Shown here: positions 4,152-64,000 of the stretch, piece by piece
Numbering within the stretch: position 1 is the first letter of the stretch
How the letters are laid out: each line of letters starts with the position of its first letter
DNA from: Siphlonurus alternatus
Lineage: Eukaryota > Arthropoda > Insecta > Ephemeroptera > Siphlonuridae
Assembly: GCA_949825025.1 (NCBI GenBank)
Contig: OX463780.1
Span: 20,664,356-20,728,355 of the forward strand
Reading direction: 5' to 3'
DNA length: 64,000 nucleotides
Position numbers and translations under genes: made by a program
Notes under the pieces: generated by a model
Told to the model about the DNA's origin: nothing
The model's input: the letters and a program-made list of their open reading frames with translations, nothing else
Databases searched by the model: none

Positions 4152-5030
4152 CTCGTTTACAGCTTCAATACAAATGAAAAAGATGTATAATAGTTTAATA
4201 AAATCAAGCAATGCCCAAGTAATCCCAATAGTCCAATCCCCTTCACCATATTCGTAAATCGAGTCGAAAATTGTTTGGAACTCCAAATAAATGTCAAATT
4301 GTAAAAATGTACTATGGAGACAAAGAAAAAATAAAATATTTATATTATAAATTGAATTAATTTCAGATAATATTTCTACAAGATCAACGTAAGCATTTCG
4401 TAGTTGCAAGAATTTTGTTCCAGGAATAAACTTTCCATTCACAGTAGAAGATTCAAGTTTGTTGTTCAATTCTTGAAAATAACTTCTTGTCAGATAAATT
4501 AAACTCCAAATTTGAAGTTCCACAGAGGTAAGGGCGATTTCCATGATTAATCCAGCCATCATAGCCATCAATCCTCGCTCATTTAAGTATGAAACGTTCA
4601 AAATGTTCGAAAAAACGTGAAATAATACAATGTTTAGTAAAAATAAATTTTTTATCATGTAGCAATTTTTTAACGGAATGATATTTTCTAGTGTATAAAA
4701 TTTTTGAAATATTTTAGTTATATTCCTTGCTTCAAAAATAATAAAATACACAATTGAAATGAATGAAAAATTTAATATAATATCACCAATAAAATGTACA
4801 ATATATGCTGCTTCAATTATAGTTGTTTGGAAAAAATTGACACATCGAAAATATAAGAAATACAAGTTACAAAATTCAGCGCCTAGTAAATAAAAAATAC
4901 TTATTATGTGTAACCCACTAGTGTGGAGGTGTTTAATTTGATCGTTTCGTACAATACTTATTGGTAAAGTACCGGTGAACTTTGATATATAATAAATGGG
5001 TTGGAAAGCGATGAACACACTTGCAGTCAT
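4152..5030 (-). CDS. Gustatory receptor variable exon 1
   Basis: Encodes 293 residues, TM1-TM6 of an insect GR, ending at donor GAG|GTGAGT (phase 0). It has FTGTLP at residues 18-23, VHFIGD at 78-83, VELQIWSLIY at 170-179 and EINSIYNINIL at 223-233. The last hydrophobic segment is WALLDFIKLLYIFFIC at 272-287. Hydrophobic stretches lie near 38-60, 76-100, 130-150, 160-183, 225-245 and 270-290. Reading past the donor hits a stop two codons later, so a downstream exon is needed for IC3 and TM7. Only 473 bp separate its ATG from the donor of exon 2. Exon 2 is the clear nearest relative. An ACAGT initiator-like site has its presumed +1 A 9 nt upstream of the ATG. Ligand unknown. Confidence 0.85.
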
Positions 5031-5503
5031 GTTTCAACTGTTATATTAGTTCTGTAAGAAGAGAAGAACTGAATTGTATAGAACACTATACATTCTCACT
5101 TAATTGTATTGATTACAAAGTTTTGCTAAAATAGTTTAATATACATGATACTCAACTACTGTAGCTGTCAACTTGAAGAAAATATTATTACAATATTGTC
5201 ATTATTAAATGAAAACTTAAGGTAATGAATTGTGCTACTACTTTTAGTTATATAATGTTAAATTAAAATATAATATTATTATATAAGAAATAATATATTA
5301 TATATTTATAAAGAAGCAAAAAAGAGTTAGTTTGGATAAATAAGCAAAAATATGTATTACGCAACCAACATACCTTAAAAAAAATCTGTTAATATCACTT
5401 TATTGAGTCAATAGACAGAAGTAAAAAATAATAGATTTATAAAATACAGTAAAAAATATAAGTAAAAAAAATCATCAAAAACTTAGGGCTTTAGTTAACT
5501 CAC

Positions 5504-6370
5504 CTCTCTCACTGCTTCATTTAGGATGAAAAACACAAAGAGTATTTTAAACCCATCAAGTAAAGCCCACTTTCCGTATAAAGTCCAATCCATGTCACCA
5601 TAGTCGTAGAATGTATTATAAATTACTTGAAACTCTACATAAAAATCAACCTGAATATTTATATTACGGAGACAAAGAAGAAGTAAAATATTTATGTTAT
5701 AAATCGAATTAATTTTATCTGATACTTCCACAAGCTCAACATAAGCATATCTTAGCTGCATGAATTTTCCGTTGACATCAAGAGATCTTGCGAGTTGATC
5801 GTTCAATTCTTGAAAATAACTTTTTGTCAGGTAAATAAGGCTCAAAATTTGTAACTCTACTGAAGTCAAGGCGATCTCCATCATTAATCCAGTAATCATA
5901 CCTATTGTTTCAAAATCTTTTAGATACGTAATATTTAAAAGTGTCGAAAAGAATTGAAATAATAGAATATTTAATAAAAATTTGTTTCTTATAGTGCAAT
6001 AATTTTTTAATGGTATGATACTTTCCAGTTTATAAAATGTTTGAAATATTATTGGTAATTTCTTTGCTTCAAAAATTACAAAATATACAACTGAAAAGAA
6101 TGAAAAATTTAGTAACAAATCACCAATAAAATGTACAATATCAATAGCTTCGAGCGCGTCATTTAATTTAAAAAATTTAACACATCGAAAATATAAGTAA
6201 TATAAGTTAGAAAATTCCGAACCTACTAAACAACAAAGGCTTAGTATGTATACAGCACTAGTGTGAAGATATTTAAGTTGGTTATTTTGTTCAAAACTTA
6301 GTGGTAAAGTCCCGGTGAACTTTGCCATGTAATAGATGGGCTTAAAAGCAATGAACACGCTTGCAGTCAT
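5504..6370 (-). CDS. Gustatory receptor variable exon 2
   Basis: 289 codons from the ATG matching that of exon 1 (MTASVFIAFKPIYY) to donor GAG|GTGAGT. The open frame extends further upstream to a TTG, but the homologous ATG and the TCAGT initiator-like site at 6400-6404 argue for this start. VHFIGDLLLNFSF, SVELQILSLIYL and KINSIYNINILLLLC follow the family order. The hinge between TM4 and the LR-YVELVE helix is shorter than in exon 1. It pairs with exon 1 as a recent tandem duplicate. No exon encoding TM7 lies in the 473 bp before exon 1. Confidence 0.85.
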
Positions 6371-6398
6371 GCTGTAAGTCGCTCTGTAGTAAGCAGTC

Positions 6399-6404
6399 AA
6401 CTGA
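6399..6404 (-). promoter_or_regulatory. Initiator-like site (TCAGTT) of exon 2
   Basis: TCAGTT on the minus strand, presumed +1 A at 6402, 32 nt upstream of the exon 2 ATG. It matches the arthropod initiator core TCAGT. Spacing is longer than in most of the array, so confidence is modest. Confidence 0.35.
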
Positions 6405-6884
6405 GTGCCTTGTATACATTTTTAATTGTATCGAATTATCGAAAGTAAAGCTGAAGCACAATGATACTCAAATATTGTTGCTGTCAATCTTGAGAATGCT
6501 ACGATAATTTTAATACGATTAATGAAAACTGTTACATAATAAATAATCAATAAAGCTCGCTATATTTTATTTCAAGGTGAATTAAAAAAAGTATAATAAT
6601 CTGAAATCAAGAAAAAAAAAAAGAATAGCCTATTTTGATAGTATCAAATATATAATACACCATTTACAGTTACTTTAAGAACATTAATGTTTTCCCCCTT
6701 TTTTTTTGTACTGGATCTTACAATTTTAGTTCATTGTATTTTATTTCTTTCAGTTACTCATATGTTATTTTAAAAAAAAGAAAATCCATATTTTGAAAGA
6801 TATTCGATGTTCGTATGCCTTGTTGAGAAAATTCATTTCGTTTTCATTTTATTTCCTTGTATCTTGTGCAAATTTTTCTAATTT

Positions 6885-7230
6885 ATGGTTCATTGATTTG
6901 TAATAGTGCTTAAATACGTAAAATGTATACTCAAAATTTGTAATTTAACTGAACAATGATTTATTTCAATTAAATATGCAGTTACACATTTAAATGCAGA
7001 AACTGGTATAATATTAAAAAATATGGTTAAACCTAACATTACTAATGATAAAATTAAAACTCTCCATTTAATTTTGTTTCAAAAGTTCTTTGGTAGTACA
7101 TAAATTTCTAATTCTTGAACAACATAAAATATCATTGAGCATTTTGGTACACCCAGCAACATGAAGGCAAAAAACGACAACAAACAAAATACAAATTATA
7201 TTGAATCTCCTTGTAGCATTACTTAAGTCA
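6885..7230 (-). pseudogene. Degraded GR relic (TM4 region)
   Basis: Minus-strand frames yield YLIEINHCSVKLQILSIHF (about 6920-6985). This matches the TM4 segment of exon 5 (VEIMECSISLQVWSLLY) in order and spacing. A hydrophobic stretch upstream (about 7150-7230, with FVVVFCLH) may be an earlier membrane segment in another frame. There is no intact start, donor or continuous frame. I read it as an old GR copy between exons 2 and 3. Confidence 0.45.
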
Positions 7231-7741
7231 ACTAATTTCTTGTTTTTAAACTTATTCAGGTTGAAATAACATTAATTTCTTTTTATTTAATTAACTGATT
7301 ATCTTAAGTGCTCTTTTAGTATATCGAGCACACAGTTTCACTTAATATTTATGTATAATGCTAATGTAATAAGATGACTAGCATAAATTGAAATGTTGAG
7401 TGGTTTGTGTCAAACCGTGCATAATGATTTATTTATATTTGTTATTAATACATGCATAAATGCATTTGGAATTGGACGAATATTTTTTTTATTCATATTG
7501 TGAAATTTCATGGCAAATAAACACATATTAGTTTTAGAAATTAAGTTTCTAGGAATGCTGCAAGCATTTAAAAATAATTATAACAAATTCCCTCTGTTCA
7601 ACAAATTCGGCAGCTATTTCTATAATCTTGCTATTTTTAATCCCATTATATATAATGTGCAAATTGATGCAAATTACAGCAAATTGACAATGAACTTTGA
7701 TTTTTAACATTCTTTATGATTATAGTTATTGTGAAACTTAC

Positions 7742-8652
7742 CTCTTTAACAGCTTCAGTACACATATAAAAATGTAAGAAAATTCTTATTATATTAAATA
7801 TAGTCCACTGAATTTCTAAAAAAAAGTTAAAACTTGTACCATTCGATGCAAGATCATACACGTCTACAAGTGTCTTGTAAATATCAAACTGCTCATAAAT
7901 ATTGTGTAGACAAAGTACCAGCAGTATGTTAAGGTTGTAAATTTGATTTATTTCAATAGAAAGTTCAGTGAGATTTTCAAATACTTGGCGAAGCCGAATT
8001 ATCTCCGCGTCACTATTCACGTTTTGCCAATTAATATAACATTCAAGTTTTTCGTTTAATGATTGAAAATACAATCTCAATATGTAAATTATGCTCCATA
8101 TTTGTATTTCTATAGACATAAGAGCAGTTTCTAAAATAGTTCTTGAAATTACACTCAAAATATCTTCATTAATCATCATTAATAATTGTAAATTTAGAAA
8201 TATATTTACAGTATGAAAAAATATTATACTTTTAAGTAACAAGTTTCTAGTATTGCGGTAATTTTTTAATGGAATTTTACTATCTAATTTTTGAAACGTT
8301 TTAATGACAACTGGAATATTTCTTGAATTAAATATAAGAAAATGAATAACTGAATAGTAAAATAGTTCTGTGAAAATATTAGCAACATATCCTATACAAC
8401 ATCTCCAGCATCAAGAGATGAGTTAGAAAAAATAGTTTTTGTAAGTGAAAATAACTGAACTAGACTTTTAATATCGAATATAACAAGTATTAAAACACTT
8501 AATAAACTTATTTTCTTACTGAAATATACTTCAATAGCTTGTTTTTTAATAATATTTCTGTGTGATAATGGTAATGTACTTGTAAATTTTGACACAAAAT
8601 AAACTGGTTTCAGAACAAATAAAATTCCCAGCTTTTCAGACCTATTCATCAT
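7742..8652 (-). pseudogene. GR variable exon 3, frameshifted
   Basis: The N-terminal part (MMNRSEKLGILFVLKPVYF, FTSTLPLSH) runs in one frame to a stop at about 8392, just after DAGDVV. The homologous continuation (YVANIF, FLIFNSRNIPVVI, KIPLKNYRNTRN) is in another frame to donor GAG|GTAAGT at 7741. Aligned with exon 2, where DIVHFIGD is expected, about seven bases are missing. Apart from that lesion the exon keeps all family landmarks, including SIEIQIWSIIYIL and EINQIYNLNIL. It belongs to the exon 1-2 group. It may be a young pseudogene, a null allele, or a sequence error. Confidence 0.75.
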
Positions 8653-12289: not shown

Positions 12290-13168
12290 CTCATTCAAAA
12301 CTGCATTGAAAGTCCAAAAGTAGAGGTGTATTTTGGTGCAATCCAGAAGTACCCATCGGAGTCCATAAACTATTCTATACGCTGTAATATAATGACCCTC
12401 TAGCATACTGTAGATAATTTTGCATATTCTATATACATCTAATTGCAAGTAAGCGTAGTGCTGACAAAGAAAAAACAAAATATTAGCATTGAAAATACTA
12501 TTTATTTCAATCGACAAATCAACGAGTGTTTCATAGCAGTTTCGTAAATTCTTATAATCGTCTCTTTTTAACTTACAACACGTTTCAATCTCGTCATTAA
12601 GGGACATAAATAAATTCTTTAATAAATACGCGAAAGTAAAAACGAGTAGTTCGATAGAACATCCCATCACTTCAATCATTACGCTAAAAATATCGCAGTA
12701 TGAGCTGCCATTTTCTATAACGTAATCTAAAATAAACACAAATGTTAAAATATGAAAAAATAATAAGTTAATACAAATTATATGTTTAGTTTGACCATAA
12801 TTTTGTAAACGTATGATTCTTTCTAAATTTAACATACTATTAATTATTGACGGAATAGTTTGTGAGTTAAATACTACAAAATAAAACATAGAAATGAATG
12901 AAAAATTATCAAAAATGTTGCAAATAATAAAAATAATATTTCCTATTTCATTAAAAGACGAATTTTTTACGAATAAAGTTGATCTGTTGTACAAAGTATG
13001 TAATTGATAACATTCCAAAATAATTAGAATTAAAATATTAAAAATAAAAAACTTCTTGTCACTTGATATTTGAATCCTGTTACATGCTACATTTGTGTAT
13101 TTTAAAGACAAAACGCCTGTGAATTTACACATGAAATAAATAGGCTTGAAGGCTAGCCATACACCCAT
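12290..13168 (-). CDS. Gustatory receptor variable exon 4
   Basis: 293 codons from MGVWLAFKPIYFMCKFTGVL to donor GAG|GTACGT. A second possible donor, GTGAGT, lies four bases into the intron; the GAG|GT site is the one conserved across the array. Landmarks are SFNEIGNIIFIICNIF in TM2, RIIRLQNYGQ in the first intracellular loop, CSIELLVFTFAYLL in TM4 and EINSIFNANILFFLC before TM5. The family FIGD motif is replaced here, so it is a divergent member of the GVW group (5, 6, 11). No close NCAGT initiator; a weaker TCACT sits with its A 25 nt upstream of the ATG. Confidence 0.83.
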
Positions 13169-14475: not shown

Positions 14476-15372
14476 CTCGGTGACCAACGTAGAACAAATC
14501 CAAAAATAGTAAAGTATTTTAATAACATCAAACAGAGCCCAACGTAGTCCAAACATTACATTTTCATGCTGAATTTCACTTTCAAAATTAAATCCAAAAT
14601 TATAAAGTGATTTTATTATTATGTAAGTATCATACTGCAGATAAACATTTTGTTGACACAAAAGAATTAAAATATAAAAGTTGAAAATAATATTTATGTC
14701 ATTTGTCAATTCAACAAGTTCTTCATAAAAATTTCGAAGTTTTCTTATGCACTCACTCTGAGTAGATATTTTTAATTTTTGAAGCTGCACTAGTTCAATG
14801 TTTATTGTCTTAAAATAAAGCTTTATTATGTAAAGTAAGCTCCATACTTGAAGAGAAATAGAACACTCCATGATCTCAACTGTAACTCCAACAATTATAC
14901 TCATTACTGTAGTAGAATATATTAACATCAAATCAAATACCATGTATGCTGTGATAATTTGAAAACATAAAATATTAATTATTATTAATAGTCTAGTATT
15001 TGCATTATCCTTTAATGGTAACATGGCCTCTATATTTATCAGTTTATTCAAAACTAATGCTAACTTGTGGGAATTATAAATAAGAAAGTACATAACTGAC
15101 AGTACTAATAAATTATCAGAGACAGTACCAATGAAATTAACAACAGACTCAGCAGTGAAAGAAAATATTTCCCATTTACGATAAAAATAATATAAACGAC
15201 ATAATTCAGCAAAAATTATGTATAAAATACTTGATATAAATAGTTTTCTATTGTAAAACACATAAACTGGTTGGTTTTCATAATTCACATAAGATAATGG
15301 TAGAACAAAGGTGACTTTAGAGACAAGGTAGACCGGCTTAAAAACGTACCACACACCCAATCCACCCGTCAT
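14476..15372 (-). CDS. Gustatory receptor variable exon 5
   Basis: 299 codons from MTGGLGVWYVFKPVYLVSK to donor GAG|GTAAGT. VVNFIGTVSDN is at TM2, AMLPLKDNANTR in the first loop and CSISLQVWSLLYIIKLYF at TM4. EELVELTNDINIIFNFYIL precedes TM5 and WALFDVIKILYYFWIC is TM6. Its three-base-per-codon frame ends in phase 0, like all others. A decayed copy of its 3' two thirds sits at 26.1-26.7 kb. ACAGT with its A 13 nt upstream of the ATG could be the initiator. Confidence 0.85.
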
Positions 15373-16134: not shown

Positions 16135-17014
16135 CGTTTTTTTATGTTGCACTGCAGATCCAAAAGTAATAAAACATTTTCATTCCATAAAGTAAATTAA
16201 GCCCATTTACTCTATATCAATTATATATAGCTCTACAAGCTCCTCATAAGAACGACGAAATTTGATAATTTTTTAATTGATAATTTCATAGGAGCTAATT
16301 TCTGAAGATCGTCATTCACTGACTGAAAAAACTGCATCAAAATGTACACTCTAATAAGCTCCAAATGAGAAGCCTACTGAACACTCCATAACTTCCACAC
16401 AAACACCGAGTACTGTACTCAGAGTGTTACGATTTGTAAGCATCCATTCTAAAATGTAATAAACTGAAAGATAATTGGGCGCGATTCACGAAGCAGTTAG
16501 CCAAGTTTTAACCACGTTTAGTTTAACTACGTTTAAACTATCCCTGTTTTACGTGTTAAATCACCTGACTAAACGTGGTTAAGCTAAACGCGGATAAAAA
16601 CCTGGATAACTCTTTTGTGAATCGCCCCCATTATGTTTGCTAATATTACCAGTCTCATTCTGTAAATATTTCTCAATGTTAGTGTGCTTTCCAATTTTAA
16701 CATCATGTTTAGTATATTATGGATAAATTTCGAGTTAAAATTTAAAAAATATAGAATTTCGTTTAATGAAAATAATCAAATGTTACCAAATAAAGCTACA
16801 ATACTACCATCTTATACGTAAAATATTTTTAACTTTTGTACAAGTTAAGCAAACAATCGCACTCAGCAAGTATAAGAAATAGGAAACTCATAATTACAAT
16901 TCTTTTGCTAGGAAATATCATGTATATTATTTTTTGTTGATTCCAGGATATTGACAAAACTCCTGTACATTTTGACACTAAATATATTGGCCTGTACGCA
17001 AGCCACACTCCCAA
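16135..17014 (-). pseudogene. GR variable exon 6, disrupted by a MITE
   Basis: The N-terminus GVWLAYRPIYLVSKCTGVLSIS closely matches exon 4, but the start codon is TTG where exon 4 has ATG. The frame closes after 61 codons (LLNLYKS then stop). Decayed TM3-TM6 traces continue to a donor-like GTAAGA at 16134. A 153-bp inverted-repeat element (16477-16629) interrupts the TM3-TM4 region. Start loss, stops and insertion together make it a pseudogene. TCAGT survives 10 nt upstream of the former ATG. Confidence 0.8.
16477..16629. mobile_element. MITE inserted in GR exon 6
   Basis: Ends GGGCGCGATTCACGAA and TTGTGAATCGCCCCC are inverted repeats. Complementarity continues inward through the AACCACGTTTAG and CTAAACGTGGTT motifs. 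ATT flanks both ends, a possible 3-bp target duplication as made by PIF/Harbinger elements. Non-coding. Confidence 0.75.
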
Positions 17015-17029
17015 CTTGCTGACTGATAT

Positions 17030-17869: not shown

Positions 17870-18796
17870 CTCGTTCGTGACAGCCTCACACAACCAGAAG
17901 TAGTAGAAAATCCTAAAGCAATCGAATGTGAATGAAACCAACGTACTACTCACAGACATCTCTTCCTCCTCATCGTTACCCATAACCGAGTCGTAAAGCA
18001 TTCTTATCAAGAGAAAAGCCGCCCATTGTGTGTACACATTATGTAAACATAAAATCACCAACACCAAAGAGCCGTAAGTTTCATTAATTTGCTTTGTTAT
18101 CCTGTGTAAAATTTCAAACGATAACCGAAGTTGATTTAATTTATTTTCAGTTATTTTATCTGGTTCTTGACAATTTTTAAGATTTTTATTAAGAGAAATG
18201 TAGTAAAATTTTAATAGAAAACATAAACACCAAAATTGTAATTCAATTGAACATTGGCTTGATTCATAAACAAGAACAAAAATCCATTGCAAAATGCTAA
18301 GTAATGAACTACTGCTGTATTCTGGAATATACATATAGTAATCTATATTTGTAATTAATGTTAATGTTTGCATTATAATTACAATTAAAATTATATTTTT
18401 TCTGCAGTGTGCATGATCATCCAATGGAATATACGAGTCTAACTCTTGCATATATTTAAACATTTTTATTAATTTTGTCATTCGATTTAAAATAAAATCA
18501 ATTGCACATAAAATAAAAATACAAAATAAAACATCACCAAAATACGAAACATAATATTCTGTTTTTAATTCCTGGGGATTTTGCAAATATCGTTTAGATA
18601 TTAATAGCAACAAAAATACCGCATCAACATTGCTTAGTATTAGAAATGACAGCGAGACGGTATGGATTGTACGATCACAGGACACTTGCAGTGGACTTTT
18701 ATCGTTGGTTTTGTAAGACAAAGGAAGCACTCCGGTTATTTTGCTCGACCAATAAAGGGGCTGGAGCACCCACAGAACGCTGTTTCGACCTCCCAT
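17870..18796 (-). CDS. Gustatory receptor variable exon 7
   Basis: 309 codons from MGGRNSVLWVLQPLYWSSKI to donor GAG|GTAAGA. YYVSYFGDVLFCIFIL is at TM2, SYIPLDDHAHCRKN in loop 1 and QCSIELQFWCLCFLLKFYYI at TM4. RITKQINETYGSLVL precedes TM5 and FTFDCFRIFYYFWLCEAVTNE closes the exon. An acidic EEEEE run (about residue 276) lies before TM6. INETYG is nearer to the IN-xFG form of many other insect GRs. TCAGT initiator-like site with its A exactly 14 nt upstream of the ATG. Confidence 0.86.
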
Positions 18797-20024: not shown

Positions 20025-20933
20025 CTGCCGTTGTACGTCTGCGCAGGTCAAGACGAGGAGTAAAACCCTGGCACCTTCGAACACGAGTCCCCAAACCTCG
20101 GTGAGAATGCTGCCACCCTGATTGCCATGTGCTAGACTGTCGTAAATGCTCTTTATTGTCCAGTAGATGAAATACTGCAGATAGACGTTGCGGACGCATA
20201 AGAAGCTCAAAATACACAAGTTATAAAGCCAATTAATTTTTTCACCGATTTCTTGAAGTTTTTCATAACTTATTCTTAAATTTGACAATTTTTTTTGTGA
20301 TACAATTGTATTATTTTTTGATAATATGTCTAACGTTAAATTCAAAACACGGAAATATTGTGACATTATGTAACATATACTCCAGAATTGAAGCTCAATT
20401 GATATTTGATTAACACCAGCTAAAGTGGACATTATCCAATGAAATATACCAGTAAAAGACCAAACTCTATATCTTAATGAGTATATCATATATGCCAAAT
20501 ATACACCTTGAAAAATTATTACACGGATAATAATGGTTTTCTTTATTTTATAATAATTTTGAAATGGAATTATTTTATCAACTTTTAGTAAATCATGTAA
20601 AATATTAGGTAATTTACGTACATTAAAGAAAACGAAGATTATTATAGATATTATGTATAAATGAAATATTACATTTCCAATGGAACGAAGAAAATACGCA
20701 GCATCGACTCCTACTCCTGCTAAGTAATTCAATGCATTTAAAAACACGTAGTAAAGATCACGTAGATACTGAACGCTGAGATAAATCGCGCTGAACACGA
20801 ATGATTTTGAATCGCAGAAAATATTCACTGTATTTGAGCCTTGATTTTCGTATTTTAAAGGTAAAACACCTGAAATTTTGGAGATACGAAATACAGGATA
20901 GAGCAGATCTAACACACTCTGTTCTCCACCCAT
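20025..20933 (-). CDS. Gustatory receptor variable exon 8
   Basis: 303 codons from MGGEQSVLDLLYPVFRISKI to donor CAG|GTGAGA. AYFLRSIGNVIFHLYIIS at TM2 groups it with exons 19 and 20, which also use CAG before the donor. ISIELQFWSICYIMSQYFRVLN is at TM4. EKINWLYNLCILSFLCVRNVYLQYF spans TM5, and FEGARVLLLVLTC is TM6. It lies about 24 kb from its two nearest relatives, so the subgroup has been dispersed. TCATTC initiator variant with its A 14 nt upstream of the ATG. Confidence 0.86.
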
Positions 20934-39685: not shown

Positions 39686-39695
39686 GAATTCTTAC

Positions 39696-44080: not shown

Positions 44081-44090
44081 AATTGCTTAC

Positions 44091-44974: not shown

Positions 44975-44999
44975 TTTATAGTTTACTACTTCAGAAATA

Positions 45000-46259: not shown

Positions 46260-47168
46260 CTGGCATTCCAGTTCTGTACACACCCAAAACTGCTGAAAAA
46301 CTCTAAATATTTCGAATGATATCCAAACTATTTCACGTAGAAAGTTGTGTTTTTTTTCATTGAACACAATGAAGGAATACAAATGTTTAATGAGTCTGTA
46401 AATATTGTACTGAATGTAAATATTGCGAACACAAAAGAAACTTAACAAACATTTATCGTAAGTTTTGTTAACTTTGACTGCCATTTCATTCAAATTTTTA
46501 TCAGCTAGTCTTAAATCTATAAAATTTTGTTCTGAAAAGACTGTGGAATTTGTCATACAATAAGTTTCTAATTGATGATTTAGGTTTTTGTAAAATTGTA
46601 TAATTACGTAGCCAATACTCCAGAATTGCAATTCTATTGAAATCTGATTGCTCCCAGCAATTATAGACATAAAATATTGACAAAAAATAAGCAAATCATA
46701 TTCATAGGAAAATGAAGTAAGAATAAAATATAAATATATACTTTGATAAAATATAAGATATAATAACAATTTTTGTCTTATTATTTTCGGCATTTTAATA
46801 GAAATTATTTTATTTATATTTTGTAGCCCATGAAGAATATCAGAAAACTCAGACACTTTAAATAACACAAAATGAAAAATTGTTAAAACGTAAAAATGAA
46901 ATATGATATTTCCAAATGAGCGAAGGAAATAATCTGCATCAATAGCAATTCCCATGAAATATCTTGAAGTTGAAATGTAAACATAATAAAGGTCACGTGT
47001 ATACATTACTGAAAAATATAACACACTTAAATTAAATATATTTTTGTTAATAAAAAAATTCAATTCTTTTGGCTGCAATATCTTATAGCTCAAAGGTAAG
47101 ACTCCGGTTATTTTCGACAGCCAGTATATCGGTTGTAGGAGGTAAAACACGTCCCTACCACCTTCCAT
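46260..47168 (-). CDS. Gustatory receptor variable exon 20
   Basis: 303 codons from MEGGRDVFYLLQPIYWLSKI to donor CAG|GTAAGA. TGVLPLSYK is the N-terminal motif and ADYFLRSFGNIIFHFYVLTIFHFVLF spans TM2. KIISIKMPKIIRQK is loop 1, AGSNQISIELQFWSIGYVIIQF is TM4 and KVNKTYDKCLLSFFCVRNIYIQYNIY spans TM5. ISFEIFRVFQQFWVCTELECQ closes it. Sister of exon 19 and cousin of exon 8. A CCAGT pentamer lies with its A 23 nt upstream of the ATG. Confidence 0.87.
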
Positions 47169-48922: not shown

Positions 48923-49849
48923 CTCATTTTCTAGCTGCGAGCAAATTGGAAATATGAGCATAATTCTAAAAACTTGGAAAGTAAGCCATCGAAGGTTGTA
49001 GAACAAAGACTCATTGTCAATTTGTAAAATAAAGAGATCGAATAAAAAAGTAATTATCAAATATATCTCATACTGCATATAAACATTACGAATACAAAGA
49101 AAGTTTAAAATACTAAAACCATAAATTTGATTTATTTTATTACAATTTTCATGCAATATCTCATAAGCATATCTATATTTATCAAATTTCTTAGAAGAAC
49201 ACGATAATATATCTTGTGAGCATTTTTCCAACACTTTATTTAATTCTCTAAAGTACTGTAGAATGATATAATAAAATGCCCAAAATTGAAGCTCCATTGC
49301 AATTTGATTATTACCAGTAATAGAAGACATGATTGATTGAAATATTTTGTTTAAAGTTAAACTTTGCATCAATATTTCATCTATGTAAAATTGAATTAAA
49401 AGTACAAATCTTGTACCATGACATATCAACACACATGTTACAATTTTTAAAAGAATTAATTTAAATTTTATTAGAGGAATAATTGAATTAATTACATTTA
49501 ATTCTTGAATTATTTTAGGTAATTTATTTACATCATACCAGACAAATTTTAGAATTGATAACATATATACACCATAAATTATGTCACCAATTAACTGTAA
49601 GAAGTGAGCTCGACCTATAGTTTTAAAATCTTGAAAAAATAAATGACGATTTACAGAATGATAGACATAATGAAAATCTCGAAGATTGATTAAAATTAGA
49701 TAAATAATGCTAATTATGAAGATTTTCTTATCAATCGAAATTTTAACGTGATTACTGTGACTTTGGTATGTTAAAGGTAGCACTCCTATGTATTTTGAAG
49801 ACCAGTACAGAGGTTGGAGCAGATACGATACGCTGTTTGTAGCACCCAT
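48923..49849 (-). CDS. Gustatory receptor variable exon 21
   Basis: 309 codons from MGATNSVSYLLQPLYWSSKY to donor GAG|GTAAGT. IGVLPLTYQ is the N-terminal motif and RAHFLQLIGDIIYGVYMLSI is at TM2. SIIPLIKFKLI is loop 1 and NNQIAMELQFWAFYYIILQYF is TM4. NKINQIYGFSILNFLCIRNVYMQYEIY spans TM5 and LTFQVFRIMLIFPICSQLENE closes it. INQIYG retains the IN-x-YG form. TCAGTTTG with its A 14 nt upstream of the ATG is one of the clearest initiators of the set. Confidence 0.88.
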
Positions 49850-49865: not shown

Positions 49866-50277
49866 CATTATGTGATATGGGATATTGACATGTGGTTAAT
49901 ATTTACATCGTTAAGGGTTGATAGAAAAAAAAAATAACAAGCAGGTTCATAATGGTATATTTTGTATACACTATAGTTTAGGAGCCTGAATTTGACGTCA
50001 GATTTCCATGATGACCATCTTATTGTAGAATTATTGTTAATTGAAGAAATTAAATTATTACAAAGCAAGGAAAAAGGTTTTATTCTGATAATAACACTGT
50101 TTATTAATAAATAATTATAAGAGTAAATATTTATTTAACTTTTATTAATAAGTATAATAAATATTATTTATAAGCGCTTCCTACAAAGATCTGTAAACTT
50201 TAATCAACCCAAAAGATAGATCCGATGTAAACTACCTCTTTGAATTAACTGTAAATAATAATATTAACCCTTAGTTA

Positions 50278-52250
50278 AGCGGCACTTTTCGCGCGTAGGG
50301 ATCCTCGTAAGAAACGCCCGCGACATTTTCTTTTCGCGTGGCAGAGGTGTTCCCGTCCGGAATCGACCCGGGAGACGGGGGCGCGGGGTGGGGGGCCTCC
50401 CGAGGTTTCCGGAACCGCCTCCCTAAAATCGAGTTTCCGATCGGGAGGGGCGCCGGAGGGCGAGAGAGGGCGAAAATCTCGAGCCGGGGACGAGATTTCG
50501 GGGAAGTTGCGGGCCTCCGGGGGCCCTCCCCGGCGTCCGTCCTCGGCGCCGCGGGAGGGGCGGACCGGTCCTCTCGGAGGTTCATGAAGCCCTTTTTCCA
50601 CTTTCGCCCCTCCTCCGACGGGGCGGGGCCGAGACCGCCCCCGACCCCGCGGGACGGTGCGGCGTCCATCGGACCTCGCGGTTCTCGTGGCACGCGACCG
50701 GCGGCCCGCCGACGCGCCTCGAGACGAAGCGACCGATCCGTCGCGTCTCTCGCGCGTCTCGCCGCGAACGCGCGTCCTGTCGGGGGGTCGCTCGGGGCGG
50801 GGGAACCACGGAAACTTTATCATCGGGGTCGCCCCCGACGTTTGTTAACTCATCCGGGCACGAGAGTAGGTTAGGTCCGACATCGGTTGATTGACACGGC
50901 CGATCGAGCGGACCACAAATGAACAGAGAGCTTTTTTCGAAAGCGGGCCTGCTTTCCGTCAACGGGGACGTCAAAGTCGGGTCCAGCTCTCTTTGAGCAA
51001 CTTCGGGTGCCATTTCGCGATTTGAAATCCTGCCTCCGTTCGAGGGGCGTGTTCGTGAGAATGACGTCGCGACACCTTTCCATCGCGATTTGCATACTTT
51101 TCGTACTTACTCGATTTAAACGCTTTGTTTCCCGAGCTGATTGTGCGGTCGACGGAAAAAAAGTTAGGTCGTGGCATTCAGACGTGCCCACATACGGATG
51201 GATCTACATGACGTTGACAGCCATGACAGGGCGTAATGCCGCGTCGTCGCTAGGTCTACGTCTCACTCGCTTCATCTGAGAGGCGGAAATGGGACTCTCG
51301 ATAGAGACTTCCTGGGGAAGTCTCGTGCCGGTCCGACACAAGCGGTGCACTATTTATTATACATTCTGGAAGGTTCCGGGGCGGTACGAGAAAAGGCCGC
51401 CAGGTGGCAGCACGGCTCGGAAAATTACCAGATATAGTGGCGATCGCCGTTGAAATACTTCTACACTGAGTTCACAGATGGCGCGCAAATCCATCTATAT
51501 GACACGTGCAATTTTTGGCCACCACCGCGTCGTCGCGACTCTCCTTCTCAAAAAGAAGAGAAAAAAAAAAAAAAAAAGGCCGGCGACCACCCGCACCCCT
51601 AGTCCTTATTATTAAACATCACTTTCGGGACCCCAAAATTAACCAGCGTTTTCCTATGCTGGGACGCACTTCCTTTGGGCGAGCGTCTGGGTTCGTCGGA
51701 ACCCGACGAAACTTTTCCTGGGGGTTCCCGGGGGTGGCCGCCGTAACCAGGAAAAAAATAAAAAATCCACGTCCGGGGGGGGGGGGGGGGGGACTGGGGG
51801 TGAATTTTCTTATCTAGATTTTTGGGGTTTTTCGGCCTCCGAGCTCTTCCGGTGCCCTGCGCTGGCCTTGGCCGGTGGAGGTCTTTGCCCGGTGAACTTT
51901 TGTTGCTGCCAAGTCGTGTTCGGTTCCGGACACCGGACACCGTTTCGGCAGCGCACGCAGCCCGTGAGGTTACGTTTGGAAATTTCGGCTCTTCGGTGTC
52001 GTGTGGTCTGTGTTTCGAATCACCGTGTGTTCGAGTGTTGGTGCGTGGTGTGTTGTCGTGGCCGTGTAGTGAGGACGTCATGCTATTGCGACGTATTACG
52101 TGTCACTTTGATGTGTTATGGCCCTCCATCATGCACTTTGAATCACAAATGTGGACATCGTGGACACGGGGTGACCTTGTGCCACGTGACTCCACGGCTA
52201 GGGGATCTCCTCCCTGAGTTCATCTTTTCGTTGGTTTCGATTTGTGTTTT
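50278..52250. other. GC-rich, CpG-dense island of about 2 kb
   Basis: Composition changes abruptly at about 50278 from AT-rich to strongly GC-rich with frequent CpG. It falls back stepwise after about 52250. All frames are long and open because of the composition and none shows codon structure or family motifs. A poly-A run (about 51559-51575) and a G15-type run (about 51774-51791) are inside. Candidates are a CpG island moved with a gene 5' end, a foreign insertion, or a misassembly. No rRNA or tRNA recognised. Confidence 0.6.
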
Positions 52251-52589
52251 CTGATACGTAGACATGCAACGCACAACGTACTAGTGCTACTTTTTACATT
52301 TTTTATACATACAGTGTTTCCTGCCATTGGAAAGTTTATGGTTACCAACTTCAACAGCTTCTTTGACGTCCAACTTTGAATGTTGGTGGAAAAAGGCAAG
52401 TCTACCATTGGTAGAAAGAGTTCTGCTAACTGGGATTGGCTGAAGCTTTTGCATATCGTCAATGCTTTGAAATTATTATAATTTATTAACTTTCTTTGTG
52501 TGACTGCTGCCATCCCATTGGCTGCTTCTGTTTAGAGGCAACATTGCAAAAGGGGATCTGACTGCTCAGTGCAGTGATGTGAAATTCGC

Positions 52590-52665
52590 GCGAAGATTGG
52601 TCCGCTAAAATGCGCATGCGAATATCCGCGCAAGTGCGCGCATATGTGCGTAAGATAGTTTCAAG
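52590..52665 (+). promoter_or_regulatory. Promoter-like cluster (NRF1-type site)
   Basis: ATGCGCATGCGAATATCCGC contains TGCGCATGCG, the binding consensus of NRF1 (ewg in flies). It is followed by more CGCGCA units and, 25 bp on, TTCAAGATGGTGGCCGCC, which has the look of a start region of a housekeeping gene. Confidence 0.4.
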
Positions 52666-52784
52666 ATGGTGGCCGCCCGCAAATGGAATCACGTGAGCAC
52701 AGATATTGTAGACATTCAGAAGTTCGATATTTTTCCCATAGATGGAGATGCCATGGTAGCACATTCCAAGCAAACTACTTTCAG
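52666..52784 (+). CDS. Possible first coding exon of an unrelated gene
   Basis: ATG in a GGTGGCCGCC context opens 39 codons plus two bases (MVAARKWNHVSTDIVDIQKF, then DIFPIDGDAMVAHSKQTTF) to a donor-like AG|GTGTGC. The composition is balanced and unlike the receptor exons. I do not recognise the protein. No next exon was found in the repeats that follow, so this may be a duplicated 5' fragment carried with the GC-rich island. It may equally be chance. Confidence 0.25.
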
Positions 52785-52798
52785 GTGTGCCTTAATTA

Positions 52799-53165
52799 AT
52801 ATAACTTTATATAAAATTGATTATTTTCGTAAATAATGCTCGGATTTACTCCCAATTAGGTCTAGGGGGGGTTATAAAATTAAGGTGCAAGTAACGCAGG
52901 TTGCATACTTTCAGGGGCATGTAGGTCGGGGTTGCATACTTTCAGGGGAAGTTTGGTTGGGTTGCATACTTTCAGGGGCATGTAAGTGAAGGTTGCCTAC
53001 CTTTAGGGGTAACTTATAATAACTTTATATAAAAACGAATATTTTCGTAAATAATGCTCGGATCATCTCCCAATTAGGTCTAGGGGGTGTTATCAAATTA
53101 AGGTGTAATTAATGCGGGTTGCATACTTTCAGGGGCATGTTGGTTGTGGTTGCCTACTTTCAGGG
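52799..53165 (+). repeat. Tandem-like repeats (GCATACTTTCAGGGG unit)
   Basis: GTTGCATACTTTCAGGGG recurs at about 52900, 52930, 52962 and 53117, with diverged copies at about 52990 and 53148. An 80-bp block (CTTTATATAAAA to AATTAGGTCTAGGGGG) occurs twice, about 52802-52868 and 53021-53093. Two nested levels of duplication. Confidence 0.75.
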
Positions 53166-53321
53166 GCAATTTGCGTTCGGTACATCATAGCATTACGAGG
53201 TTTAATTACAACTGGTTACCTCTTTGTGTTGAAGATAGGCAGTGTCCGGAGTAAGCCCATTGCCTTGCTCGCTCGAACACGACCGGACGCTAAGAAAATA
53301 ATTAACTCGAATCTCCCCAAA

Positions 53322-53475
53322 CTCCTTAAAAAAATTATTAAATAAAATAAAATAAATAATATTAAAATAGTAGGGGCCTAACAACTGCGTCTGACTCCTT
53401 AAAAAATTATTAAATAAAATAAAATAAAATAAATAATAATAAAATAGTAGGGGTCTAACAACTGCGTCTGAGTCG
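53322..53475 (+). repeat. Tandem duplication of about 75 bp
   Basis: The unit from CTCCTTAAAAAAATTATTAA to CTAACAACTGCGTCTGA is present twice, head to tail, with an AAAAT-type simple sequence inside each unit. Confidence 0.75.
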
Positions 53476-53544
53476 TTATCTGAGCCTGTTCATCTTCGCT
53501 AATTTAGAACACTATAATATCTGTCAATATATGGCTGAGAGATT

Positions 53545-53717
53545 TTTGAAAGTGCATCACTGCACTGGGTGGAAAGCAAGACGAATTTATCCCAGGGAGG
53601 GAGCGGCGTATTTTTATACTTGAAATGGTCACCCATCCAAGTATTAACCACGCTTGACGTAGCCTGACTTCAGTGATCTAACGAGAACCGGTCAATGCAT
53701 AACGCCACGCTCCACCT
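53545..53717 (-). mobile_element. 5S-rRNA-derived SINE, 3'-truncated copy
   Basis: On the minus strand it reads GACCGGTTCTCGTTAGATCA, then GTTAATACTTGGATGGGTGACC. This is the internal-promoter region of 5S rRNA, followed by the SINE body ending in CCCAGTGCAGTGATGCACTT. The same head is in the longer copy at 61057. Confidence 0.8.
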
Positions 53718-53734
53718 CTACTCTGAATTACTCT

Positions 53735-53999
53735 GAATTTTTTTAGATTTTTGTAAGTCCTGCAACCATTTCTAAATACTTATTGAACGTTCTGTAATTT
53801 AAGTTGGCACTCCTGAATCGTTAATAACAAGGATAGGACAGAGACGCCTGTTGACGCCTCCAGAGGGCGTGGCAGCACATTTAATAATTATTTAAAAATA
53901 GTTCTGGGTTTCAAAAAAATCTGGAAAAAATCAGAGTAGCATAATTTGGTACCTTCAATTCATTTCTGTAATAAAAAAATTTCATGTAGGTTGTCCATT
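53735..53999. mobile_element. MITE family A, copy 3 (left end lost)
   Basis: Shares GACGCCTGTTGACGCC, AATAGTTCTGG and the right end GTAGGTTGTCCATT with copy 1. The left part is shortened against the SINE. Confidence 0.65.
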
Positions 54000-54275
54000 T
54001 TGCATTAAAATACCGTTATGATATCACGTACTGAATACTTATATAGATGGCAACATATGATTGACAAAATTAATTAAAAGACTTGAAACCAAACGAGCGT
54101 AGGCGAGCCTAGTTTACACCCCACCCCTAGTATTATTTATAAGAATATGATTTTTCATGATGATTAAGCCACTAAAATTTTCATATTCTAATATTTCATT
54201 GTACTTGTTCATTTATACTATATATTATTTCACTGCTTTAAAAAAATATTTCTGCCTTGCATTTTTTCAAGTATA

Positions 54276-54586: not shown

Positions 54587-55534
54587 CTCTTGTTCTACTC
54601 TGGCGCACACATCTACTAGTAAAAAAACAATGAAAGTATAGAACAGAAGCCACGGTACTGCGATCAAGAATCTATTGGCTACAACGTTAAGTACAGATTT
54701 TGAGTCTATAGAAATATGATTAAAAATATCGTAGCAATTTTCAAACACGATGTACAAATCATATTGGAAATAAATATTGCATTTCAACAAGAAAAAAGAA
54801 AGAGGGGGACCGAACATTCTGTTTACGTCTTCAAATACTGCGTGTAGTTTTTCGTAAGTCGACCTTAAATCACCAATATCCGTTTGCTTAAACTTCTTTT
54901 TATTGTTCAAAGAGTACTGTAATTCATAATTAAAGCATTTAAAATAATGAAATACAACTAAGCAAATGCTCCAAAACATAATTAGTAAAGTTATTTGAGA
55001 ATTATTGAAGATATAAAATAAAATTTTAGATGTAATATTAAATATGAATATGTCTTTAAAATTGAAATTATAACAGGTTTTTACAAAATATAAAAACTGT
55101 ATGATATGACCTGCAATGAAACAAATTAAAATTTTGTTTCTCAAAGAGTTAATCTTTTTCAGAGAAACGATTTTATCGATTTCTTTAAAAATTTGGAAAA
55201 TGTTACTAAATCTATGCATCTCATGCAAGATAAAATTAAATGTTAAAATAAGAGATATATTGGTTATCACAGCCCCTATCAATTTAAGACTGTGAACTGC
55301 TTTCAAGTCTCGAATTTCAGATACCAAATGCCTCATTACTAAGTTGTACAAGTTGTACGAGTCTCTGGTGTATTGAACAACTAGAAATAGCACGTTGAGG
55401 ATTAGTAGTTTTTTGTCACGGTAAATCTTAATATGATTTTGACTTATTTTGTAAGTAACAGGTAAGATTCCAACAGCCTTAGAAGCCCAATACACGGGTC
55501 GGAGGACAAAAAATGCCCTGTTGTTCAATGCCAT
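54587..55534 (-). CDS. Gustatory receptor variable exon 22
   Basis: 316 codons from MALNNRAFFVLRPVYWASKA to donor GAG|GTAAGA; longest of the set. VGILPVTYK is the N-terminal motif. LKAVHSLKLIGAVITNISLILTF at TM2 and ITLLIMFWSICLVVFHYF at TM4 define the 22-25 block, in which the usual LQFWSIC is MFWSIC. DVNRMFGPPLSFFLLKCNIYFQYDLY spans TM5. A longer loop with four extra codons (ISIDSKSVLNVVANR) precedes TM6. ACAGT initiator variant with its A 14 nt upstream of this ATG, supporting it over the in-frame ATG four codons upstream. Confidence 0.87.
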
Positions 55535-56939: not shown

Positions 56940-57863
56940 CTCCCTCTCGACCCTGGCACAGGCACTCACCAGGAGAAAGATACTGACAGCAGACACGGCT
57001 AGCCACTGGACCGATATTACAACGTTGATTGTCAAAGGGGCGTTGCTTATGAGCACATCGTACACATTCTCGACTATACTGTATACATCATACAGCACGT
57101 ACGCGTTGAGTCTCAATAAAAAACAAAGAACTATAAAACCAAATGTTTCACTCAAAATTTCAATAAGAGATTCTATTTTTTCAAATGCAATTCGTAAATT
57201 GTCAATTTCTTTTAAACTTAAAGGTAAGCTTAAAAAGTGTTCAATTTTATAATTTAATACCTTTAAATACTTTGAAATTAAAAAACATATACTCCAAAAA
57301 AGGATACTTATTGTTATTTGTCCATTATAAAATATATAAGTTAAACTTTTATTAATAATAATACTTATTATATATTTTTTTGAGTAATATAAATTATATG
57401 AAGTTTTTATGAAATATAAAAGTTGCAAACTATGTCCAGCTATGTACATAAATAAAATTGATTTTCTCAAAGACTTCAGATCATTAAGAGTAATAAGTTT
57501 ATCAATTTCTTTAAAAATATTAAATATATTACTAAACCTATCAGCAGCGTGTAAAATAAAATAAAACAATGAAATAAATAATAAATTTGTTATAATAGCT
57601 CCTATTAATTTCAAACTGTGTACAGCTTTTAGATCATCAATTTCAGATACCAAATGCTTCATTACCAAGACCTTTAAATTGTAACTGTCTCTGACGTATT
57701 GTACCGCTAGGAACAACAAACTGATGATCAAAACTTTATGGTTACCGATAATCTGGATCTCTTTACATTTACTTGTTTTAAAACTCAAAGGTAATATCCC
57801 GATGGCTTTAGAAGTCCATAAGACAGGTGTTAACACATACAACGCTCTGTTTTCTGTTGCCAT
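56940..57863 (-). CDS. Gustatory receptor variable exon 23
   Basis: 308 codons from MATENRALYVLTPVLWTSKA to donor GAG|GTGAGT. IGILPLSFKTS is the N-terminal motif and LKAVHSLKLIGAIITNLLFI is at TM2. KLITLNDLKSLRKS is loop 1 and ITISILFWSICFLISKYLKVLN is TM4. EILSETFGFIVLCFLLRLNAYVLYDVY spans TM5, and the last segment is VSAVSIFLLVSACARVERE. SETFG is close to the classic IN-x-FG form. The frame is open sixteen codons further; the chosen ATG fits both homology and TCAGT with its A 14 nt upstream. Confidence 0.87.
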
Positions 57864-57874
57864 CATCACAACCA

Positions 57875-58818: not shown

Positions 58819-59730
58819 CTCTTGCTCCACCCCGTTGCAAACGTAAAACAATGAAGATATTCTTACAAAGGAGAGAAAGAGAAACTGAATGGAGATGAGA
58901 ATGTTGTTGTCCAACTGAGAATTAAACTTGAGCATGTCATACACATTCTCAACTACTTTATATAAATCATACTGTAAATAAATTAAACGTTTTAGTAAAA
59001 ACCAAAGAATTATTAAACCAAATGTTTCATTCAATGTTTCAATTAGTAAAAATAATTTTTCAAATGCAATTCTTAAATCATCAATGTCATTTAATTTTGA
59101 TGATAACGTTGAAATTTGATTAATTTTAATATTTAATGATCTTGAGTATTGTAAAATTAAAAAACATATACTCCAAAACATGAAAAGTAAAATTATTTGA
59201 GCGTTGTTATAAATATAAAACATGCTTTTAGTAACATTATTAAATAAAATTGATTCCTTAGTGTGATAAAATTTTATGAAATCGGAGAACAGTATACTAT
59301 GAAAAACCATTAAACAAAATATATTAATATTACGTAGACTTTTTAAATTTTTAAGTTGAATTATTTTATCAATATCTTCAAAGAGATTAAAAATTTTACA
59401 AAATCTTTGTGTTTCAAACAAAACAAAAACGAATGTTAAAATGATTGATATATTTGTTATCACTGCGCCTATGAGTTTTAAACTATGGATTGCCTTCAGA
59501 TGTTTCAAATCAGACACCAAATGTCTCATTATTAGGTTGCACAAATTGTTGCTATCTCGCAAGTACTGCAGGACCAAAAATAACAAGCTAATGATGAGTA
59601 TTTTGTGGTCCTGGAAAACCTTGATGTTATCAGATCTGTTTCTTCTGTAACTCAGAGGTAATACGCCCATGATTTTGGAAGCCCAATAAACGGGTCGTAG
59701 AACAAAAAAGGCACTGTTTTCTGATCCCAT
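58819..59730 (-). CDS. Gustatory receptor variable exon 24
   Basis: 304 codons from MGSENSAFFVLRPVYWASKI to donor GAG|GTAAGT. MGVLPLSYR is the N-terminal motif. LKAIHSLKLIGAVITNISIILTFVFVLF spans TM2, and KIIQLKNLKSLRN is loop 1. IILLFMFWSICFLILQYSRSLN is TM4, and ETLNETFGLIILWFLLKRLIYLQYDLY spans TM5. LSFVRISSLFYVCNGVEQE closes the exon. Its ATG is only 308 bp from the donor of exon 25. TCAGTTTG with its A 14 nt upstream. Confidence 0.88.
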
Positions 59731-60038: not shown

Positions 60039-60953
60039 CTCTCTCTCGATTCCAGTGCAAACTGAGAAAAGAAGGAAAACTCTTGCACTTGAAAGAACAA
60101 GCCACTGCATAGAGATGAAAGTGCTGGTAGTTAACTGAGCAATGCCGGTGAAAATGTCGTACACATTCTCAATAATAGTAAATAAGTCATATTGCAGATA
60201 AATGTTACGTTTTATTAAGAATGTAAGTAGTATGTTATCATACATATTATTTACTGTTTCAATTAGTATGTATAATTTATCATATGTAATTCTTAGTTCA
60301 TCAATTTGTTTTATGTTTAATGTTGAAAATTCTATTTCAAAATTTAATGATTTCAAAAAATGTAAAATAACTAAACATATACTCCAGAACATCATTTGCA
60401 ATGTTATTTCAGCATTGAAAATTATGTAGTTCATGATTTGGTAAATAACAGTTAAAATTTTCAAATCATTTGATAGCAAAATATTAAGAAAATTTTGAAT
60501 ATTATAAGACAACTGAATACCGTGTGCAATTAAAAACCAGAAAATTATTGTGAATTTAAGATATTTGGTATATTTAATCGTTATAATATGTTCAATGTCT
60601 CTTATATATTGAAAAATGGTTAAAAATATATTTGAATGGAAGGCTACGAAATTAAACATTAAAACTATTGATATATTTGTTGTTAGAGCTCCAAAGAATT
60701 GCAAACAGTGCAATGGTTCTAGGGCACCAATTTTATGTATAAATAAATTAATAATTAGTGCGTATAAATAATAACAATGTTTCAAGTATTGACAACATAA
60801 AACTAATAAACTAATTATCAAGAGGTAAAAATCCCGAAAAAACTGGGTTTCTTCTGATTTGCTTGTTTTGTAATTGAGAGGTAATATTCCAATATATTTA
60901 GAAGCCCAGTACACGGGCTGAAGCACACAAAATGCAGTGTTGTTTGCACCCAT
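60039..60953 (-). CDS. Gustatory receptor variable exon 25
   Basis: 305 codons from MGANNTAFCVLQPVYWASKY to donor GAG|GTGAGC. IGILPLNYKTS is the N-terminal motif and LEPLHCLQFFGALTTNISIVLMF is at TM2. HIITIKYTKYLKF is loop 1 and ITLQMMFWSICLVILHFLKSLN is TM4. ETVNNMYDNILLTFLIKRNIYLQYDLF spans TM5 and SSARVFLLFSVCTGIERE closes it. The short hinge between TM4 and LR-TYDKL is a feature of the block. CCAGT with its A 14 nt upstream of the ATG. Confidence 0.87.
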
Positions 60954-62390: not shown

Positions 62391-63314
62391 CTCTCCCTCA
62401 AGTTGAAAGCAAACATAGAAGAGCATGAAGATCCGCAAACACGCCAACAAAATCCACTTCACAGAGTAAAATATTTCATCCATTGGAATATCCAAGATGA
62501 AACATTCGTAAATATTTTTAACAAGTAAATATAAATCGTATTGTAAACTAACATTACTGATACATAAGAAACAAAATATTTCGGGTGCATAAATATTATT
62601 TGTACTCTCATGAATACCATGTATTATTTCTACAGCCAATCTGTAATCATCTACTTTTTTCATGAAAACAATGGAATGACGCTTAGAATTGAGTTTTAAA
62701 TGTGTATTGAGTTCACGTAGATACTTTAATAAAATATAACATATACTCCAGAATTGTAATTCAAATGTTATATGATTTGAACTTTCAATAAAAAGAAATA
62801 TTCCATTACAAAATTGAAATCCTGACCAATCTTCTTTAGTTATAAACTTAATACGGTCAACAATATTAAATATGAAATGCATTCCATGAATTGTAATTAT
62901 ACAAAATATTAAATTAATTCTTGTAAATTTTACATTTTTTAATGGTACAATTTTATCAACCTTCATCATATCTTGAATAATATTAATTAAACTATTAGTA
63001 TCACACAAAATAAATCTAAATACTAATAAAATATATCCATTAAATATAGCAGTTCCAATTACTTGTAGAAAATGTTCTGCCTCCATTGAAACTGATGTAA
63101 AATGATTCCATGCTAATTCATAAAAATTATAAAAATCTCTAATATATTGAAGTAAAAAATATATTATGCTATAGGCTAGTAAGTTCTTATCTTTGAATAT
63201 TTGTACGTCATAGGAACTTCTTATTTTGAATTCAAGCGGCAAGATTCCAAAAAGTTTGGACACCCAGAACACGGGACGAAGAAGGTACAATACGCTGCTC
63301 TCAGGTCCCGTCAT
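62391..63314 (-). CDS. Gustatory receptor variable exon 26
   Basis: 308 codons from MTGPESSVLYLLRPVFWVSK to donor GAG|GTAAGA. FGILPLEFK is the N-terminal motif and EAEHFLQVIGTAIFNGYILLVF is at TM2. KIVPLKNVKFTR is loop 1 and SSNHITFELQFWSICYILLKYLRELN is TM4. ESTNNIYAPEIFCFLCISNVSLQYDLY spans TM5, and LLACLRIFMLFYVCFQLEGE closes it. ESTN replaces KIN in the TM5 entry motif. TCAGT with its A 11 nt upstream of the ATG. Confidence 0.87.
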
Positions 63315-63322
63315 CGCGGAGT

Positions 63323-63327
63323 ACTGA
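63323..63327 (-). promoter_or_regulatory. Initiator-like TCAGT of exon 26
   Basis: Presumed +1 A at 63325, 11 nt before the ATG. Confidence 0.4.
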
Positions 63328-63334
63328 CCAAGAC

Positions 63335-63925
63335 TCTCGTCACCTCAAGGTAAGTATGGAGAAGTGACAAGACGTGTCACAACTTGTAGTTCTCGCAGGT
63401 CCTCAACTTGTTTACAGTTGAAAACACCCTAGACCTAGCGTTTTAGTATAATTAAGGATTAATTATGCAACGATGATAATATTGTAAAATTTGAGAAATT
63501 TCTCGTACAAAAATTATGTATAAACTGTATTATTGTTCATAATATTCCTTAATTTTATTTGTAAAACCTTGAAATGATACAAATTTTATAATAAATAATA
63601 TTTTAACTAACTGACACGATTTATTAAAAATGCATCCTCGGCCCTATAGATTTAACTTTTAAATTTACTACATTAGGAGGCTTAGTAAAAAAAGTAGTAA
63701 AAATTATATAAACGCTAAAAATGTTGATAAAATAAAATTCATTGTTGGTAAGAGGAAAAGTAAAATTTATAAATATAAAAAATATATTGCTATACCCAAA
63801 ACTTAACGATAACGACGCTCCCTTTTACAATTCTTAAATCCCCACATTTTAGTAAAGAGTCATTCACAATATATTCATTTGCTAGATAACATATAATATT
63901 AACAAACAAAACAACTTTAATTTCA
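63335..63925. other. AT-rich spacer
   Basis: About 600 bp between exon 26 and exon 27. Nothing recognised, and no TM7-type exon. Confidence 0.45.
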
Positions 63926-63931
63926 ACTCAC

Positions 63932-64000
63932 CTCATTTTCAACGTTCTCACACACCGAGAAGAGCATCCAAACTCTGACAACAGCAAATAAGAGCCACTT
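63932..64000 (-). CDS. Gustatory receptor variable exon 27, cut by window edge
   Basis: The last 23 codons read KWLLFAVVRVWMLFSVCENVENE up to donor GAG|GTGAGT. This is the standard TM6 end of the array exons. The rest lies beyond the right edge, so the array continues there. Confidence 0.85.

Follow-up and report, generated by a model that had tools for sequence, protein, structure and literature searches.

A mayfly gustatory receptor locus with 29 intact large exons: very probably one gene in which alternative first exons share three 3' exons

How does a long run of large gustatory receptor (GR) exons yield complete receptors when no exon for the last transmembrane helix (TM) is found among them? 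The question is raised by 64,000 nucleotides (nt) of the mayfly Siphlonurus alternatus (GCA_949825025.1, contig OX463780.1, 20,664,356 to 20,728,355), here called the window. A sequence-only reading of it had proposed that the large exons share constant 3' exons left of coordinate 1. Our analysis indicates that the array is very probably a single GR gene of about 101 kb (99288 to -2116, minus strand) with 29 intact alternative first exons and three shared constant exons. Coordinates are those of the window, and negative values lie left of coordinate 1 on the same chromosome (C3). Flanks of 100 kb were added on each side, giving 264 kb in total without any N.

A profile made from the long frames of the window was run against the window itself and, together with a check of donors, gave 19 intact GR first exons entirely inside the window, all on the minus strand. 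The array continues past the right edge in flanking DNA of the same chromosome to 99288, where one further intact exon is cut by the edge and nine lie beyond it, giving 29. The sequence-only reading had claimed an own ATG and a phase-0 donor for each exon, which holds for all 29: each has its ATG and an open frame that ends in GAG or CAG at a phase-0 GT donor. Donor sequences are GTAAGA (10), GTAAGT (6), GTGAGT (5), GTACGT, GTAAGG and GTAAGC (2 each), and GTGAGA and GTGAGC (1 each). Read without splicing, the frames reach a stop 2 to 24 codons past the donor. The array is thus larger than could be seen from the window.

The shared 3' exons were found where they had been expected. At 0.9-2.1 kb to the left of coordinate 1, the minus strand carries three short constant exons in the right order, each in phase 0 and flanked by good splice sites. 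Constant exon 1 (AKKTGPLVNKIANSLPESPTRET, 23 codons, -1006 to -938) is preceded by GCAG and followed by GTGAG. Constant exon 2 (LLWFASEVSSRKVKFTACGLFPINYELLFA, 30 codons, -1628 to -1539) is preceded by TCAG and followed by GTGAG. Constant exon 3 (AAGSCATNMAILMQAHIVTLKQKSGGE and a stop, 27 codons, -2116 to -2033) is preceded by TCAG and contains TM7. The sequence-only reading had advised a leftward search for short phase-0 exons with TYhhhhhQF, a motif that is typical of GR TM7 but not obligatory; the exons exist, but their TM7 reads TNMAILMQA, and because of this difference such a search would miss the TM7 exon. Neither the literal motif nor looser TM7 motifs located the last exon. Constant exon 2 was first found by a motif search and constant exon 3 by a graded, position-set scan of AG acceptors, with the sets taken from a consensus. 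The literal motif is also absent from the window in all six frames, a test which is weak alone because the real TM7 differs from it; the real constant exons are likewise unmatched in the window, in agreement with the earlier statement that no exon with the TYhhhhhQF motif was recognised in these 64 kb. Two motif matches were set aside: TFIMFTFQL (46967-46993), the sole match to a looser pattern in the window, lies out of frame inside exon 46260-47168, and SYFIILIQF at -32912 fell outside the 12 best acceptor-linked candidates per strand.

The constant set is apparently unique to its place. An ungapped scan of both strands of the 264 kb gave constant exon 2 a score of 156 at its own site and 103 in a neighbouring gene, with 28 as the next best; for constant exon 3, the scores are 123 at its own site, then 47 and 38. 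The sole other constant-exon set within the 264 kb belongs to this neighbour, a single-exon GR gene. A search of the whole genome (455,680,777 bases, 102 contigs) with constant exon 2 gave 19 matches with expectation values (E) up to 2.2, two of which are in the array region. By the 264-kb scan and the whole-genome exon 2 search, neither constant exon 2 nor constant exon 3 has a copy among the array's exons. As far as these searches reach, namely among 3' exons similar enough to the known set to be recognised, the array has one shared set of three 3' exons and none that is private.

The joined products are GRs. When two first exons were joined to the constant exons, the proteins scored 112.6 and 118.7 bits against Pfam 7tm_7 (cut-off 26.6), covering profile positions 1-368 of 370; the score rises from 42 to 113 bits once the constant exons are appended. 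Among 11 distinct window exons scanned alone, three exceed the cut-off (27310, 41175, and 58819), exon 56940 stays below it (22.9 as the whole open reading frame (ORF), 21.8 when trimmed), and seven have no 7tm_7 match. The genome scan with 7tm_7 marked eight places in the window, all above the cut-off. A structural model of exon 27310 has the GR fold and aligns to Gr43a residues 3-354, while the tail of the joined protein aligns up to residue 422, as expected if the large exons end after TM6. In TM7, ATNMAILMQA aligns to ATYLVILIQF of Gr43a; the conserved Gln is kept, with Y replaced by N and F by A. Entropy per helix is highest in S3 and lowest in the N-helix and S5, a measure too coarse for any claim about a binding pocket.

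A gene model of a second mayfly contains the predicted junction. Searching 5.77 billion sequences with a joined isoform (389 amino acids) returned one protein, a ‘Gustatory receptor’ of Cloeon dipterum (550 amino acids, E 0.001); Cloeon belongs to a different mayfly family. Its tail equals the array's constant exons in 73 of 76 residues and ends in the same three exons, and its gene model joins an exon ending in E straight to AKKTG, which matches the predicted junction. The front of the protein is only 22% identical (70/318) to the array exon compared. Judged by this one Cloeon protein, the single tail copy is therefore nearly frozen, whereas the bodies turn over. One first exon alone found no matches in the protein search, and a profile aligned from all the exons except 63932 (28 sequences) brought up one unnamed 295-residue frame that resembles exons 4152 and 5504.

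Within the array, mean protein identity is 30% over the 29 exons, 41% between neighbours and 28% between exons at least five places apart. Such a gradient is typical of tandem duplication. The ratio of nonsynonymous to synonymous substitution rates (dN/dS) is 0.17 to 0.46 in the 12 computable of the 14 closest exon pairs, which supports selection on the intact exons. In many pairs, dS is saturated or large (up to 2.3). The most similar pair, 89416-90324 and 92848-93762 (84% protein identity, dS 0.20), is by these figures a recent tandem duplication.

How one exon would be chosen is suggested by the leaders. In 21 of the 29 exons, CAGT occurs in the 27 nt that precede the ATG, compared with 8.4% of random 27-nt stretches, and its A stands at exactly -14 in 12 of the 29. 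The initiator consensus is TCAGT. We consider that CAGT is probably an initiator with a leader of about 14 nt and that each first exon probably has its own promoter. Only -15, -13, -6, -3, and -1 exceed 0.35 bits among the 60 positions before the ATG. No TATA-like site precedes CAGT in the 21 leaders checked, and k-mers beyond -28 gave only words present in 2 to 5 of the 29 leaders, partly from recent duplicates. In 11 distinct first-ATG leaders of other GRs in the genome, CAGT lies within 27 nt once, at -9; thus, the initiator is not general among this genome's GRs. The neighbouring GR gene does carry CAGT, read at the second of two nearby ATGs.

In the proposed mechanism, transcription from the promoter of one first exon would begin about 14 nt 5' of its ATG and read through everything downstream. 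The first exons appear to lack splice acceptors. The transcript would therefore hold one usable 5' donor, the phase-0 donor of the chosen exon, which would pair with the single acceptor at -938, and for the same reason the intervening first exons would leave with the intron. As selection would take place at the promoter, promoter choice would equal receptor choice, and no splicing regulator would be required. The chosen exon would code for the receptor body up to TM6, to which the constant exons would add the final 80 residues with the TM7 pore helix; all receptors of the locus would have this helix in common and may differ in their ligands. An initiator at a near-fixed distance would offer a concrete, testable account of choosing one receptor among 29, and a frozen shared pore cassette set against fast-diverging bodies would be a natural experiment on the ligand and gating parts of GRs.

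The leaders also bear on another explanation, in which the large exons are internal and mutually exclusive behind a common 5' exon and CAG is their acceptor. In many exons CAG does stand at a near-constant distance 5' of the ATG. A T follows it, however, in 21 of 25 cases, as in an initiator and unlike the usual acceptor. No pyrimidine excess is seen in the 15 nt preceding CAG (0.51, with a background of 0.51, compared with 0.60-0.67 at six real acceptors; the difference is small), and the leaders of exons 4152 and 24369 carry an in-frame stop between CAG and ATG. We therefore regard internal exons as quite improbable. Proximity to the constant exons raises a different doubt, namely that only the near exons are used and that the distal array is a reservoir of decaying exons. 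This would suit the approximately eight degenerate exons, two of them split by insertions, and distal introns of up to 100 kb. Yet the region beyond 63.9 kb contains 10 of the 29 intact exons, all with phase-0 GT donors, and the close distal pairs with a dN/dS value are also below 0.5, so that a mere reservoir is unlikely.

If the array were instead about 29 separate tandem GR genes, short private 3' exons should stand between the large exons. Such arrangements exist in this genome: in a GR array on C8, the penultimate exon occurs five times, about 5 to 9 kb apart, and by this measure, the exon 2 search, it looks like an ordinary tandem array; the GR array on C1 has two different TM7 exons; and the neighbouring gene at -5867 has its own three 3' exons. 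Between the array exons, however, copies of constant exons 2 and 3 were not found, although relatives of 37-68% identity turn up in other parts of the genome by the same search. The real constant exons, used as probes, revealed no TM7 exon between neighbouring large exons, the arrangement which the sequence-only reading had named as contrary to a shared set. Separate genes are thus refuted at the DNA level for 3' exons homologous to the known set, and overall this explanation is very improbable.

Several points weigh against a single gene with its own promoter at each first exon. The junctions in this species are predicted from DNA, and the farthest first exon needs an intron of about 100 kb that spans insertions. 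The Cloeon gene model misjoins two tandem large exons and so does not represent a clean isoform. The searches, which gave no match on C6, the site of another GR array, could overlook a private 3' exon that has diverged strongly. At 68778-68852, constant exon 3 has an unexplained score of 38; this match follows CAA and not AG, overlaps in a different frame with the end of exon 68846, and was taken as chance. CAGT is absent near the ATG in 8 of the 29 exons. Its count is not independent evidence because the exons descend from one another, and binomial values overstate the case since the exons are related.

The design itself is already known, rarely so large, and the mayfly locus is a new, very large case of the Gr39a/TcasGr214 type. 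In the clustered protocadherin genes of vertebrates, every variable first exon has a promoter and is joined to a constant set, and promoter choice is exon choice. A protocadherin-like locus is a possibility that we put forward tentatively: some 29 promoters borne by the exons, many of them followed by a leader fixed at about 14 nt, would pick the body, a single near-frozen pore cassette with an altered TM7 signature (TNhhhhhQA) would be mated to fast-changing bodies, and the array on C6, if it has a single TM7 exon, would be an independent case in this genome. This is a working likeness and not kinship, as the proteins are unrelated, and it excludes claims on stochastic choice or insulator elements.

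In insects, TcasGr214 of Tribolium castaneum is described with 30 alternative long 5' exons and three shared 3' exons (PMC6307266), and 30 variants are given for it beside 17 for AglaGr99 and 13 for LdecGr48 (PMC6720082). With 30 alternatives in TcasGr214, the earlier claim that the mayfly locus is one of the larger of its kind is fair; the likeness to the beetle gene is one of described exon layout. Gr39a of Drosophila melanogaster is described as four large exons with three small exons (PMC2204066), in contrast to the 29 intact large exons and the TM7 TNMAILMQA found here. In Blattella germanica, Gr60 and related genes are reported to have multiple long first exons, three shared short final exons and phase 0 introns; BgerGr60, the largest of these cockroach genes, has 13 alternatives compared with our 29 (PMC6175461). 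For the damselfly Calopteryx, 51 GR genes are stated to give 115 proteins (PMC5381652), and for the Cloeon genome 64 GRs are given in main-text passages that do not mention alternative first exons (PMC7250882). Among the matches listed in our literature search, which covered few subscription papers, there was no mayfly locus of this design.

The intact first exons in the window, with their lengths in amino acids, lie at 4152-5030 (293; nearest the constant exons, GAG before GTGAGT), 5504-6370 (289), 12290-13168 (293), 14476-15372 (299), 17870-18796 (309), 20025-20933 (303), 22806-23729 (308), 24369-25286 (306), 27310-28242 (311; the exon modelled), 35273-36208 (312), 37468-38403 (312), 41175-42101 (309), 46260-47168 (303), 48923-49849 (309), 54587-55534 (316), 56940-57866 (309), 58819-59730 (304), 60039-60953 (305), and 62391-63314 (308). 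The exon cut by the right edge (63932-64867, 312) has its 3' end, 63932-64000, in the window. Beyond the edge, intact exons start at 66114, 68846, 70668, 87130, 89416, 92848, 94182, 96608, and 98377, the last ending at 99288.

About eight first exons are degenerate, six of them found by the profile scan in the window: 7724-8643 and 33088-34036 (two profile matches each), 16148-17020 (fragments of profile 9-311), 39684-40643 (three matches), 44082-44986 (start part as a separate match), and 29111-32224, all on the minus strand. The last is apparently one exon split by an insertion: 29111-29509 and 31604-32224 match profile positions 189-318 and 4-208 on the same strand and fit one interrupted exon. 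Two further weak remnants (6861-7195 and 26149-26352) consist of pieces with E 0.002 to 0.3. The window thus holds 26 to 28 units if the edge-cut exon is included and three still weaker matches (E 0.03 to 0.2; near 502-615 and 2708-2887) are not. Of the earlier count of 27 large exons with 19 intact, the intact number stands and the total falls within our range; that count may have taken the two parts of 29111-32224 as two units. The insertion at 29509-31604 is retroelement-like, with an RVT_1 fragment on the plus strand that ends near an (AAAT)21 repeat; the reverse-transcriptase-like ORF (29473-30312, plus strand) matches RVT_1 with E 2e-4, below the family cut-off. Beyond the edge, degenerate exons lie at 74572-75445 and 77198-84029. 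The latter is split by an insertion of about 5.9 kb (77533-83409), whose ends are inverted copies of at least 48 nt and which looks like a DNA transposon.

The neighbouring GR gene has a single large exon (-5867 to -6790) and its own 3' exons at -7756 to -7824, -7890 to -7979, and -8735 to -8818. Having private 3' exons, it serves as an internal control. Its constant exons match those of the array in 43 of 76 residues, its TM7 reads SNMVLLAQS, and it is perhaps a sister gene of the array. On C4 (20545247-20549344), a GR fragment with stops is followed by a penultimate exon 68% identical to that of the array, perhaps a decayed relative of the array gene.

On C6, GR exons extend from 13,023,377 to about 13,096,000, and the locus including its TM7 exon spans 13023377-13101857. 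The 20 kb from 13,084,001 to 13,104,000 contain five large frames and a single canonical TM7 exon, ITGAATTYLVLLLQF, at 13,101,741 (TTYLVLLLQF). Searching the genome with this exon gave one other match, which is partial (C5, E 0.42, with a stop). The arrangement suggests a possible second gene of the alternative-first-exon design.

Between the exons of the window, a GC-rich block occupies 50001-54000 (54% at 50-52 kb and 40% at 52-54 kb, compared with 25-33% around it). No genes or RNA families were recognised in this block, and Rfam gave nothing at gathering scores in the whole window. The part at 50-52 kb was compared with 18S ribosomal RNA genes retrieved from the genome and is not their flank. 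Many further copies of a repeat at 53.7-54.0 kb occur across the 264 kb.

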